DNA of 38,219 nt from positions 1-38,219 of the forward strand of contig JARKNX010000218.1 of the NCBI GenBank assembly GCA_029976025.1, written 5' to 3'. Source of the DNA: Aggregatilineales bacterium. GTDB taxonomy: Bacteria; Chloroflexota; Anaerolineae; Aggregatilineales; Ch27. The notes beneath the pieces are model-generated. The model ran no database searches. It saw nothing but the letters and a program-made list of their open reading frames with translations, and was not told the origin of the DNA. This document shows positions 19,741-23,927 of the stretch, piece after piece (within the stretch, counting starts at the first letter, position 1; every line of letters starts with the position of its first letter). The position numbers were made by a program, and so were the translations under genes.

Positions 19741-20517
19741 ATGCCAGCGCCATTTACTGCGGCGGCGTATGAACGCCTGTGTCGCGCCGTCAGAGATTCC
19801 GGGCTTCGCCCGTTGCGGGTTGTCGATTATCTTGAGGCACGCCCCCGGACCGGCTTTGTGATTTTGCGTTACGATGTGGACGCCCGGCCCGATCACGCGG
19901 TGTGGATGGCACATCTTCTGTATCGTCACGGCTTATGCGGCTCGTTTTACTGGCATGCTGCGCCGCCCCGCCTGCATCGTCTCGATTGCATGAGAGAAGT
20001 GGCGGCGCTTGGACATGAACTCGGCTACCATCATGACGCGCTCGCTCGCTGCAAAGGGGATATCGAGGCCGCCGCGACGCAGTTCGCCCGGGACATAGCG
20101 ACTTTCCGGGCCGAGGGATTCGATATCCGGACGGCGGCGGCTCACGGCTCCCCCGGATTTGACACCCAGCAGTTGCTCCGGGAACGGCCCGATTTGCTGG
20201 CCGCCTGTGCTCTGACCGGCGAAGCCTATGCCAGCATTGACTTCTCCCACGTGCAATATATCAGCGACGCGGGGTGGGCGTGGCGAAAGTTTCCGCTGCG
20301 CGTTGATGCGCAGCAGGTGCGGGCTGAGAGGGGGGCGGGCAGCTTCCCGGTGCTGCGCGATGCAGACGTGCTTTTGCTGCTGGCCGACACGACGGCGCGC
20401 CTGTATCTTAACACCCACCCGGAGCTGTGGTTCGCTTCCGCCTGGGAGGCGCGTTTCCGGCGCTGGCGTCGCCGGGCCGGGCGGGGCGTGCAGCAGATGT
20501 TGCGCGGACGGGGGTAG
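19741..20517 (+). CDS. NodB-like polysaccharide deacetylase-related protein
   Basis: A 258-residue protein of the polysaccharide deacetylase-like superfamily. RYDVDARPDHAVWMAHLLYRHGL contains the D-V-D metal/active-site motif seen in this superfamily, followed by GSFYWH and LGHELGYHHDAL with the His residues that bind the metal. AAHGSPGFD is a further conserved-looking loop. No signal peptide is visible. The start is ATG 19741; an alternative GTG at 19696 lies inside the upstream terminator. The gene ends 11 nt before a flippase, which suggests a role in surface-glycan modification. The exact substrate is unknown. Confidence 0.72.
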   Translation: MPAPFTAAAYERLCRAVRDSGLRPLRVVDYLEARPRTGFVILRYDVDARPDHAVWMAHLLYRHGLCGSFYWHAAPPRLHRLDCMREVAALGHELGYHHDALARCKGDIEAAATQFARDIATFRAEGFDIRTAAAHGSPGFDTQQLLRERPDLLAACALTGEAYASIDFSHVQYISDAGWAWRKFPLRVDAQQVRAERGAGSFPVLRDADVLLLLADTTARLYLNTHPELWFASAWEARFRRWRRRAGRGVQQMLRGRG

Positions 20518-20528
20518 CGCGGCGGACC

Positions 20529-21971
20529 ATGCAAAAGCAGCGACTGCGCCAGTTCGGTATTGAAACCGCGATTTATGCCGCCGTCCTGATCGTCGTGCGG
20601 CTGCTGGCTATGATCGCGATCGCCGTCTACGCCCGATGGCTTCTGCCAGATGAGCTGGGCCTGCTCGATATCAGCCTGGCGGTGCAGGCCCTGCTGCTGG
20701 CGCTGGGGGCGCTGGGGCTGCGGGCGGCTATCAAGCTCTTCTGGTTTGAGGACGCTGATCCGCGGGCGGCGAATACCACGGCGCTGGTTGCGCAAAGCGT
20801 GGCAGCCTCCACCCTGGCAGTCGGGGGTATGATTCTGGCTCCCGCTATGAGTGCGATCCTGCTGGGCGGGGAGGCCCGATTCGTGGTCTTTGTGCTGGCT
20901 TCAGCGACTGTCCCGTTCATCCTGATGCAGGACTACACCGCCGGGATGCTGCGCGTGGTGCAGCGGCCCTGGTCTTTCGCCCTGGTGGTCGTGGGGACGG
21001 CAGCGCTTCAGGCCGGACTGGGAATCTGGCTGGTGGCGGGGCAGGGGCTGGGCGCCGAGGGCATCCTGCTGGGAGGGCTGGCGGCGCAGATTGCAACGGC
21101 GCTGGCGGGCCTGTGGCTGATTCGACGGACACTGTCCCGGCGCTTTTCAGCGGTCTCACTGCGCAGCATGCTGGTGTACGGCGTGCCACTCGTGCCTGTG
21201 GACCTGCTGCGGTGGACGACGGCGAATGTCAGCCGTATTTTCTTCGGGTTCTACGGATTGCTGGCAGCGGCGGGCGTCTTCGGGATTGGCTTCCGGATCG
21301 GCGTGCTGGTGCTGGTGGCAACCCAGGCTTTTGAATTGAGCTGGGTGCCGTTTGCCCTTTCGGTCGGGCAGCAGCAAGATGCACCCGCTCTCTACGCGCG
21401 CGGCGCGCTGATGTATGCCCTCCTGGTGGGCACAATAACGGGGGCAGTGGGGTTGTTTGCCGGAGAGCTTACAACCATCCTGGCTGCACCTGCTTATGCG
21501 GAGGCGGCGGCGCTCGTGCCGCTGATCGGGCTGGCCCATGCCGCCGGAGGGAGCGTGACGGTCCTGGGCATTAGCGCCCTGGTCACCCGCCGGACCGGAC
21601 GCCTGAGCGCCGCGGTCGCCGTCGGGGCGGCGACAACGCTGCTGTTGACGATCCCTGGCATTGGCGCGTTTGGCGCTGCTGGCGCCGCCTGGAGCCTGCT
21701 GGCCGGCCAGGTTGTCGGCGCTGCCCTTCTGGTTGCGCTGACCCGGGGCCTGCTGCCTGTCCCTTATAACTGGCGGATTCTGGGCCTGATAGTGATTCTC
21801 ACGGCCGGCCTGTGCCTGCTGGGCGCCGTCTGGCCGGCCATGCCCATACTCGTATCTGTCGCGCTGAAAGGGGCGATCCTGATTCTGGGACTCCTCGGGC
21901 TGGGGCGGGCGACCGGCATAGTGGGCCGGGAGGACCTGAGGCGATTACTCCGGCGGCTGGTAAGCCAGTAG
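20529..21971 (+). CDS. Polysaccharide/lipid-linked oligosaccharide flippase (Wzx-like, MOP superfamily)
   Basis: A 480-residue integral membrane protein with about 12-14 hydrophobic helices. The N-terminal ETAIYAAVLIVVRLLAMIAI and YARWLLPDELGLLDI match the O-antigen flippase pattern, in which helix 1 is followed by a loop containing a Pro and Gly-rich turn. It would flip lipid-linked glycans across the membrane. The start is ATG 20529; the frame is open further upstream but overlaps the deacetylase gene. It is 11 nt after that gene. Its last 27 nt overlap the convergent thioredoxin-like gene. Confidence 0.85.
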   Translation: MQKQRLRQFGIETAIYAAVLIVVRLLAMIAIAVYARWLLPDELGLLDISLAVQALLLALGALGLRAAIKLFWFEDADPRAANTTALVAQSVAASTLAVGGMILAPAMSAILLGGEARFVVFVLASATVPFILMQDYTAGMLRVVQRPWSFALVVVGTAALQAGLGIWLVAGQGLGAEGILLGGLAAQIATALAGLWLIRRTLSRRFSAVSLRSMLVYGVPLVPVDLLRWTTANVSRIFFGFYGLLAAAGVFGIGFRIGVLVLVATQAFELSWVPFALSVGQQQDAPALYARGALMYALLVGTITGAVGLFAGELTTILAAPAYAEAAALVPLIGLAHAAGGSVTVLGISALVTRRTGRLSAAVAVGAATTLLLTIPGIGAFGAAGAAWSLLAGQVVGAALLVALTRGLLPVPYNWRILGLIVILTAGLCLLGAVWPAMPILVSVALKGAILILGLLGLGRATGIVGREDLRRLLRRLVSQ

Positions 21972-22388
21972 CGCAGCTTCGCGCAGGGCGTTGACCTGCG
22001 GAAGGCCAGCCTGCGTCATGATAATGTTGCGGCTTCGATCCAGCACCAGAAAGGCGGGCACTGACCGCACTCCGTAGGAAGCGGCGATTGCACGCCCCGG
22101 CTCGCTGAGGATATCGATTCGAATCACCTGCGCCCGCCCGATCAGATCAGCTTCCAGCCCGTCCACGACGGGCTTTGAGAGCAGACACGGCGTTCAGAGA
22201 TTGGAGTAAAAAGAGAGGACGGTCGGCTGCCCGTTCGCCAGCAATGATTCGAAATCTCCGAGGGAATCCAGCGGCGTAGGCGTTGTGAACAGGAAAATAC
22301 GCACCAGAATCAGCAATATCAGCAGCACCAGCAGGGTGGTGATATTGGGGTGGCGCCGAAAAAATCCAAACCGTTCAGCTCGAGTCAC
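21945..22388 (-). CDS. Candidate selenoprotein: membrane-anchored thioredoxin-like protein with in-frame UGA (UxxC)
   Basis: Read straight through, this is one 147-residue frame with a single internal TGA at 22194-22196. The start is GTG 22388 with AGGAG 8 nt upstream. A basic N-terminus and one helix (about 16-34) would place the C-terminus outside the membrane. The thioredoxin core follows: QPTVLSFYSNL, then U65-T-P-C68, then LLSKPVVDGLE, VIRIDIL and YGVRSVPAFLVLD with cis-Pro111. The UGA falls precisely at the first cysteine position of the CxxC motif. The frame is open and domain-like on both sides and the rest shows no decay. TGA is used as a normal stop by other genes here (hpt, greA), so it is not a reassigned code. 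Alternatives are a point nonsense mutation or a sequencing error. Confidence 0.72.
22156..22174 (-). promoter_or_regulatory. Candidate bacterial SECIS hairpin
   Basis: Minus-strand RNA: AGCCCGUC pairs perfectly with GACGGGCU around the loop GUG. The loop begins 28 nt after the UGA, so 27 nt lie between. As I recall the published bacterial SECIS consensus, it needs a small apical loop with G near its start, a stem of several base pairs and a UGA-to-loop spacing of about 16-37 nt; this hairpin satisfies each. Confidence 0.6.
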
Positions 22389-22418
22389 GCCTGTCTCCTC
22401 TCAGGTCATCAACAGCCT

Positions 22419-22448: not shown

Positions 22449-23741
22449 TCAGTTCTGAAATATAACACCTTCCGGGTGAACTATCTGGCCGCCGATAATC
22501 ACCTGCTCCACCAGATTCACGCCAAAGTGATAGCCCAGCTCGCGATAATCGCCTGGCTCCCAGATGACGAGATCAGCGACATATCCCGGCTGCAGACTGC
22601 CGACATAACGCCCCATGTTCACTGCCCAGGCGGCATTGAGGGTGCAGGCGACCAGGGCCTGGGCCGGAGTCAACCGGTGGTACCGCGTCGCCAGGGCGAG
22701 CACAAACTGCATGTTTTCTGTCCAGGCCGGGCCGGGGTTGCAGTCTGTAGCCAGGGCGAGGATAGCGCCAGCATCCAGCAGTTTGTGGGCCGGGGGGTAG
22801 TGACTGGCTCCCAGCCCGAACGGCGTAGTCGGCAGGGAGACGGCGACTGTGTCGCTGCCGCCGATCAGGGCGATTTCTTCGTCAGAGGTAACATCAAGAT
22901 GATCGAGCGAGACCGCGCCAAGCTCTACCCCCAGCCGCGCGCCCCCCAGATTGTCAAATTCATCCACATGAATCTTGAGCTTCAGGCCCATCTGCTGCGC
23001 CGCTTGCAGGATACGACGAGTCTGCGCGAGGGAGAAGGCGCCCGTCTCACAGAAGACGTCGCAGAACAGGTCGCCGGGCCAGCGCTCTGCCCTCCAGGCG
23101 GCGACGGCGGGCAGCATCTCCTCTACGACCAGCCACACATACCCGTCCGGATCGTCGATATATTCGGCGGGGAAGGCGTGCGCGCCCAGGAAAGTAGGCA
23201 CAATGCGAACCGGGCGCTTTGAGGCCAGGGCGACGATCGCATCCAGCATCTTGATCTCAGCAGCGGTTTCCAGCCCGTAACCGGACTTGATCTCAATTGT
23301 CGTCGTGCCATGCGCCAGCGCGGTATCCAGGCGGGGCAGGGCGGCGCGGATCAGCTCATCCAGAGAGGCGGCGCGGGTGGCGCGTGTGGTATGGGCAATC
23401 CCGCCGCCCTCAGCCATGATCTCCTGATAGGTGGCGCCGGCGATCCGCCGCTCGAATTCGGCTGCCCGGTCGCCAGCCCATACCAGATGGGTGTGCGGGT
23501 CCACCAGGCCCGGCGTGATCAGGCGCCCGGCGGCGTCGATCACCTTTGTGGCAGTGTAGGTGCTCTCTATTGCCGCAGTCGTTCCGGTGGCTGCGATCAG
23601 GCCATCCCGGATAGCCACCGCGCCGTGCTCGATCAAACCCAGATCACCCAGCGCGTGGCCACGCTGGGGACCTCCGTTATGGGTCGGGATGGTACAGATC
23701 TGTCGGGCATTGGTGATGAGCAGGTCCGCCTGCTGCTTCAT
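22449..23741 (-). CDS. hutI: Imidazolonepropionase
   Basis: Third step of histidine degradation: hydrolyses 4-imidazolone-5-propanoate to N-formimino-L-glutamate. It is an amidohydrolase-fold enzyme of 430 residues. Metal ligands and substrate residues are seen in DPHTHLVWAGDR, GGGIAHTTRATRAAS, HGTTTIEIKSGYGL, FLGAHAFP, KIHVDEF, LDHLDV and ATDCNPG. The start is ATG 23741; a TTG six codons upstream is less likely. The usual partners hutH and hutU are not in the window. The downstream thioredoxin-like gene lies 60 nt away on the same strand. Confidence 0.95.
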   Translation of the reverse strand: MKQQADLLITNARQICTIPTHNGGPQRGHALGDLGLIEHGAVAIRDGLIAATGTTAAIESTYTATKVIDAAGRLITPGLVDPHTHLVWAGDRAAEFERRIAGATYQEIMAEGGGIAHTTRATRAASLDELIRAALPRLDTALAHGTTTIEIKSGYGLETAAEIKMLDAIVALASKRPVRIVPTFLGAHAFPAEYIDDPDGYVWLVVEEMLPAVAAWRAERWPGDLFCDVFCETGAFSLAQTRRILQAAQQMGLKLKIHVDEFDNLGGARLGVELGAVSLDHLDVTSDEEIALIGGSDTVAVSLPTTPFGLGASHYPPAHKLLDAGAILALATDCNPGPAWTENMQFVLALATRYHRLTPAQALVACTLNAAWAVNMGRYVGSLQPGYVADLVIWEPGDYRELGYHFGVNLVEQVIIGGQIVHPEGVIFQN

Positions 23742-23927
23742 AGGTAACCCCCGCGCCAATTGTGCATACTTCGTGAGAGTTCAGTGCGGGGAGATTGTAG
23801 CGCATTTATCGGCATTGCGTGGCAGTCCGTAGGGCAGGCGGCAGGCGCCGGACCAGTACAGCCGGCGGAACTGTGGCATACTGGGAAGCACATTGATGCT
23901 TTCGTCCACGTTACAGGAGCGAGTAAA

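Follow-up and report, generated by a model that had tools for sequence, protein, structure and literature searches.

The window analysed here is a 38,219-nucleotide stretch of an Aggregatilineales bacterium genome (contig JARKNX010000218.1, positions 1–38,219), taken from an assembly that is fragmented into 225 contigs. On its minus strand lies a small gene with a single in-frame TGA, which is strongly supported as encoding a selenoprotein. The gene, its elements and its upstream neighbour are as follows.

21945–22388, minus strand: predicted gene of a membrane-anchored thioredoxin-fold selenoprotein (GTG start at 22388, TAA stop at 21947–21945, 147 residues, Sec65)
22389–22402, minus strand: putative SD-like stretch GAGAGGAGACAGGC directly 5' of the GTG, from direct reading of the sequence
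22290–22349, minus strand: predicted N-terminal membrane anchor, residues 14–33 (model helix 14–33, hydropathy, flank charges)
21960–22262, minus strand: thioredoxin-fold domain, residues 43–143, with the cis-Pro motif RSVPAF (P111) (Pfam, alignment, model, solved folds)
22194–22196, minus strand: in-frame TGA, predicted to be read as selenocysteine 65, the first residue of UxxC (homologue comparison)
22156–22174, minus strand: bSECIS-like hairpin AGCCCGUC-GUG-GACGGGCU (8 bp, 3-nt loop beginning with G, 27 nt from TGA to loop)
22449–23759, minus strand: imidazolonepropionase-like amidohydrolase, the upstream same-strand neighbour, 60 nt away (PF07969 84.5 bits and PF22039 27.1 bits, both over their cut-offs)

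The frame from 22388 to 21945 reads VTRAERFGFFRR...SNL*TPCLLSKPVVDGLE...RSVPAFLV...QPPE, comprising 147 codons followed by TAA, and its sole TGA is codon 65 (22196–22194). A sequence-only reading of the window, which had given no strand for the gene, described one TGA within an otherwise intact thioredoxin-fold frame, and this is borne out by the SNL-U-TPC and RSVPAF segments on the minus strand; the GTG start and the SD-like stretch that it claimed are both visible as well. The 3' end of the gene overlaps by 27 bp (21945–21971), tail to tail, with a convergent plus-strand ORF at 20427–21971, which is polysaccharide flippase-like.

In the protein, a short, positively charged N-terminus leads into a single hydrophobic helix, which is followed by a thioredoxin domain. 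It scores 35.1 bits against PF00085 (gathering cut-off 23.5), and the best solved matches, by sequence profile as well as by fold, are thioredoxins. An AlphaFold2 model built from 30 sequences (mean pLDDT 92.9, pTM 0.81) comprises a helix at residues 14–33 followed by the thioredoxin domain at residues 43–143. In this model U65 and C68 lie at the start of helix 66–81 and P111, the putative cis-Pro by its place, precedes strand 112–116. Both C65 and P111 are invariant in the 30 aligned sequences. At the level of named families, a scan of the window protein against NCBIfam gave no model that reaches its own cut-off. The thioredoxin equivalog TIGR01068 gives 41.5 bits against a cut-off of 96.8, and the selenoprotein-family models of NCBIfam (e.g., NF045500 GOS_C and NF047660 HUIPC) do not take in the protein as a member. 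Among 30 members compared with NCBIfam, 21 families appeared at E <= 0.01, of which the only selenoprotein-named models were TsoB (15/30 members, best 1.2e-7) and TIGR02187 PDO_seleno_TRX (3/30, best 5.9e-4); the window protein itself reaches 12.4 bits with TsoB, against a cut-off of 805.

Codon 65 was compared among relatives in three ways. Of 400 genomes searched within the phylum, 367 gave a match at E <= 0.001, and most of these match weakly and perhaps hold ordinary thioredoxins only; in the best 30 matches, the window's gene included, codon 65 is TGA in 24 and a Cys codon in 6. All four other same-family genomes searched carry the TGA form. When named genomes were scanned for either of two peptide patterns, YSNLCT[QP]C or KP[IV]VDGLE, 57 loci were obtained, with TGA at codon 65 in 56 and Cys in one, and this set is biased, as both patterns favour the amino acids of the hairpin. 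The named loci are mostly labelled Chloroflexi/Chloroflexota or inner groups such as Anaerolineae; outside the phylum there are single loci labelled Myxococcales, Polyangiaceae, Deltaproteobacteria, Actinomycetes and bacterium CPR1, together with two Acidobacteria. Three genomes hold a second, more distant one-TGA match less than 1 kb from the first (G033:C20:74797-75087, G077:C25:16961-17254 and G308:C326:1193-1492), each a possible tandem pair.

The in-frame TGA is aligned with Cys or TGA in the relatives and has conserved flanks, and this alternation of TGA and Cys at one aligned codon excludes a chance TGA. Homologues with Cys at this position were expected by the sequence-only reading, and the homologues read do carry either TGA or Cys. 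Moreover, dN is lower than dS on both sides of the TGA in six close pairs, with a ratio of at most about 0.35. A nonsense mutation or a sequencing or assembly error, by which TGC or TGT became TGA in an ordinary Cys thioredoxin gene, would need just one substitution, and the fragmentation of the assembly speaks in its favour. Against it stand the recurrence of the same TGA in the phylum matches (24/30), the same-family genomes (4/4) and the named loci (56/57), and the purifying selection behind the TGA in the six pairs tested. A second alternative takes the TGA to be read as some other residue, e.g., Trp, or the gene to be split into a short N-terminal peptide and a restart behind the TGA, which would agree with the frame being open beyond that codon. 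However, the 10 distinct non-TGA genes all have Cys (TGC or TGT) and none has Trp, and a restart would lose the first active-site residue as well as the anchor and would leave the covariation of the hairpin, described below, without evident purpose. This second alternative is considered very improbable. The sequence-only reading, for its part, took the code to be standard from neighbouring genes that end in TGA.

Directly downstream of the TGA is a hairpin that the sequence-only reading had not reported. With -14.3 kcal/mol and a z of -3.40 (0/200 shuffles as stable), its values satisfy the published bacterial bSECIS model (PMC13188914). The inner stem is encoded by the Pro73-Val74 and Asp76-Gly77 codons, and the Val75 codon forms the loop. 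For counting across relatives, 101 loci were reduced to 91 distinct 96-base segments by dropping 10 copies, leaving 81 Sec and 10 Cys genes. Of the 81 distinct Sec genes, 68 form all six inner pairs and 13 form five; the loop starts with G in 81/81. Likewise, in the phylum search, for which no motif served as a guide, 17 of the 24 Sec rows have six pairs and 7 have five. Under a synonymous-codon null using the family's own usage (2000 draws), a mean of 3.8 and a maximum of 11 complete stems are obtained, against the 68 observed.

The paired positions also change together. An A at the first base of codon 74 pairs with GAT for Asp and a G with GAC (46/1/3/29, Fisher p 4e-17), and the Gly77 codon is GGG in 72/76 against a usage of 26%. 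Compensatory swaps keep the pairs even where amino acids differ, namely Pro CCT/Arg AGG in four genes and Phe TTC/Glu GAA in one gene. Four loci (L033, L125, L129 and L134) have Asn AAT for the Asp GAT of VDG (codon 76 in the window's gene), with one pair lost and five kept. The total fold energy of the 66-nt stretch, compared with synonymous shuffles, is mostly not significant (<=0.05 in 3/24 Sec genes; 0.053 for the window's gene); the fixed-register pair test is preferred because the energy summed over 66 nt does not separate the hairpin from pairing that has nothing to do with it. Among the distinct Cys genes, a complete six-pair stem occurs in 0/10 and five pairs in 1/10. The one with five, the Cys-form locus L025, has a loop that starts with C, not G, and possibly represents a recent Sec-to-Cys change. 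The hairpin thus follows the TGA and is incomplete in 10/10 distinct Cys genes, which further opposes a mutation or an assembly error. Given the same TGA in independent genomes and a hairpin tied to the Sec form, that explanation was rejected as very unlikely.

The genes that the sequence-only reading proposed to look for, selA, selB, selD and selC (tRNA-Sec), are all four present in the bacterium's own genome. SelA scores 429.8 bits, SelB 360 bits and SelD 361.4 bits; tRNA-Sec scores 69.5 bits, and ARAGORN gives its anticodon as tca. The SelD gene (L050, G000:C81:7089-8024) has one in-frame TGA of its own and, on that account, is likely a selenoprotein itself. Across the phylum, SelB is above cut-off in 36 of 40 TGA-form genomes, of which 6 were classed by the one-TGA mark alone, in 8/10 Cys-form genomes and in 2/3 genomes with weaker matches; it is absent above cut-off from four of the 40 TGA-form genomes (G163, G217, G308 and G385). 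It is also found in 34 of 40 control genomes, which were hand-picked as 20 without a match and 20 with weak best matches whose TGA status is not listed. The presence of SelB is therefore necessary but does not discriminate within this phylum, and its value as supporting evidence is weakened accordingly. The selenoprotein inference made in the sequence-only reading is upheld by three findings together: the TGA/Cys homologues, the covarying hairpin and the machinery in the own genome.

The orientation of the protein in the membrane is suggested by the charges that flank its helix. These are +2 before the helix and -1 after it in the window protein, and +3 to +4 before and 0 after in the same-family loci L053–L055, which favours N-in insertion with the domain outside. 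A simple hydropathy rule assigns N-terminal hydrophobic segments to 44/44 rows, one segment in 24 of them and two in 20. Of the 24 one-segment rows, 11 have the more positive charge on the N-side and the other 13 have indecisive or reversed charges; the middle loop is positive in 10 of the 20 two-segment rows, which would place the domain outside, and not positive in the remaining 10. The sequence-only reading spoke of an extracytoplasmic, membrane-anchored protein. The anchoring fits the sequence and the model, whereas the extracytoplasmic side is inferred from charges and is only weakly indicated across the relatives.

A selenoprotein whose thioredoxin domain lies in the cytoplasm, i.e., a membrane-tethered thioredoxin fed by thioredoxin reductase, has to be weighed at this point. 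It would agree with the indecisive or reversed charges and the non-positive loops just counted, and also with the surroundings of the named loci: thioredoxin-reductase-like ORFs lie within 6 kb in 7/57 (three were scanned, and all contain PF07992), and a thioredoxin lies directly upstream in 3/57 (two were scanned, both with PF00085). The charges of the window protein and of L053–L055, together with the positive inter-helix loop in half of the two-segment rows, point the other way, and a cytoplasmic domain is regarded as unlikely. The product is thus probably a membrane-anchored, extracytoplasmic thiol/selenol oxidoreductase, judging by sequence and with its sidedness drawn from the charges.

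Conserved gene neighbourhoods were sought by single-linkage clustering around the 57 named loci, whose flanks are in many cases short. No neighbour is common to more than 14 of them; the largest cluster (14/57) is translation GTPase-like by eye. At L067 and L068, similar amidohydrolase ORFs lie upstream with another gene in between, again by eye. In the own genome, the CcdA/DsbD match is marginal (25.7 bits, or 28 with neighbours, against a cut-off of 27.1), and the best TrxB match, with 323 bits, is under its cut-off of 343.45. Since the neighbour is a non-redox gene, the CcdA/DsbD match marginal and TrxB under cut-off, an electron path is unsupported in the own genome.

As a whole, we are highly confident that the locus is best explained by a Sec65 decoded through SelB and the hairpin, in an anchored UxxC thioredoxin-fold protein, probably an oxidoreductase with its domain outside. 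The product would be small, held by a single N-terminal membrane helix and carrying Sec65-Thr-Pro-Cys68 as its active site. UGA 65 would be decoded by SelB and Sec-tRNA, positioned by the hairpin with its loop 27 nt downstream. The helix would insert N-in, leaving the domain on the extracytoplasmic side, where Sec65 may serve as the attacking selenolate and Cys68 may resolve the intermediate. The enzyme could then be a disulfide- or peroxide-linked reductase whose targets outside the membrane are disulfides or oxidised partners, with a CcdA/DsbD-type carrier or a thioredoxin-reductase system as the likely class of electron source.

The tree of 44 rows indicates how Sec and Cys have been exchanged. 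It is unrooted and was built with the hairpin's amino-acid columns retained and U coded as C; on it, six changes are required to account for the Cys state, and well-supported branches force at least five of them. Several Cys tips adjoin or fall inside Sec clades. Sec may be the ancestral state, an inference given that the tree is unrooted.

A related group carries two TGAs. Among the 57 named loci, five (L115, L119, L121, L122 and L123) have UxxU, the two TGAs both lying in frame. When one of these served as query for a class-wide search, 15/199 genomes matched; of the 12 loci fetched, 10 (L124–L127, L129, L130 and L132–L135) likewise show UxxU with two in-frame TGAs, one reads UxxC and one match starts behind the motif. 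The sequence of L127 repeats that of L119. These relatives have lipobox-like N-terminal signals ending in Cys, as judged by eye, and are candidate double-Sec thioredoxin lipoproteins. The position of the stem is unchanged in them; all six inner pairs form in the five named loci, and the six others counted keep five or six. This puts the first UGA 27 nt and the second 18 nt from the loop, both distances within the range of 16–37 nt. In the passages available from a 2026 catalogue of prokaryotic selenoproteins, UxxU is listed for Prx-like, metal-binding and FmdB families (PMC13188914), and the lipoprotein-like relatives may thus be a distinct variant. They pose the question of whether one bSECIS serves two UGAs that start nine bases apart.

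UxxC thioredoxin selenoproteins are already a known kind, to which the window's gene adds a member. The same catalogue lists thioredoxin (PF00085, UxxC) as experimentally verified, along with many other UxxC thioredoxin-fold families (PMC13188914). The catalogued Sec-thioredoxin shares with the window protein the PF00085 domain, Sec at the first Cys of CxxC and a hairpin directly downstream of the TGA (PMC13188914). Unlike it, the window protein has an N-terminal membrane helix and stays below the TIGR01068 cut-off, the comparison being made with the catalogue entry. Two further catalogued families, the Prx-like thiol:disulfide oxidoreductase (PF00578, UxxC/UxxU) and the thiol:disulfide interchange protein (PF13098, UxxC), resemble the window protein in combining a redox Sec motif with a thioredoxin-type fold (PMC13188914). 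The window protein falls below both Pfam cut-offs (19.3 bits against 26 for PF00578, 21.4 against 27 for PF13098).

A weak match is also found to the slr1796-like thylakoid protein (NF038096), with 15.1 bits for the window protein against a cut-off of 140 and E <= 0.01 in 7/30 members. This model presumably describes a Cys protein of oxygenic phototrophs. The domain cd02950, in turn, we take to be the membrane-associated TxlA group, so a selenoprotein group related to it may be of the same kind as the window family. Such a group is 'Trx-like 3' of the GOS survey, described there under cd02950 (E-value > 0.001) as UxxC, its sequences numbering 212 with Sec and 183 with Cys (PMC2398784). By this description it is like the window family in being UxxC and thioredoxin-like, with Sec about as common as Cys, and it may be the same or a close group; the survey sampled aquatic, mainly marine sources (PMC2398784). 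Within the phylum, a 2006 survey put the number of Chloroflexi selenoproteins at 3, in 3 families (PMC1794560), and Sec formate dehydrogenases are mentioned for Chloroflexi elsewhere (PMC5736913). The main text of the 2026 catalogue has neither the word Chloroflexi nor Chloroflexota (PMC13188914). A Chloroflexota thioredoxin selenoprotein was not found among the open-access PMC papers listed, which gives no proof of absence. The suggestion that such a protein may be undescribed is the weak point of the sequence-only reading. UxxC thioredoxins are already catalogued and 'Trx-like 3' may be the same, but within the sources covered a Sec-dominant anchored family was not found described.

Drawn together, these observations tentatively suggest an undescribed, Sec-dominant family of anchored extracytoplasmic thioredoxins, widespread in Chloroflexota and also present in a few other phyla. 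Sec would be ancestral in it and would have given way to Cys on several occasions, the hairpin having decayed in almost every case seen; its sister UxxU lipoproteins, with a possible diselenide, would have one hairpin spaced for both UGAs. This joint reading is possible and falls somewhat short of probable. Its consequences reach beyond the window. Gene callers that take TGA as a stop truncate or split such proteins, and many genomes therefore probably carry a wrong annotation of a redox protein that is frequent in Chloroflexota. Moreover, the family makes an RNA constraint legible in codons, as amino-acid and synonymous choices co-vary to keep the stem. Since this constraint is kept in Sec genes and relaxed in Cys genes, the exchange between Sec and Cys becomes testable within one family.
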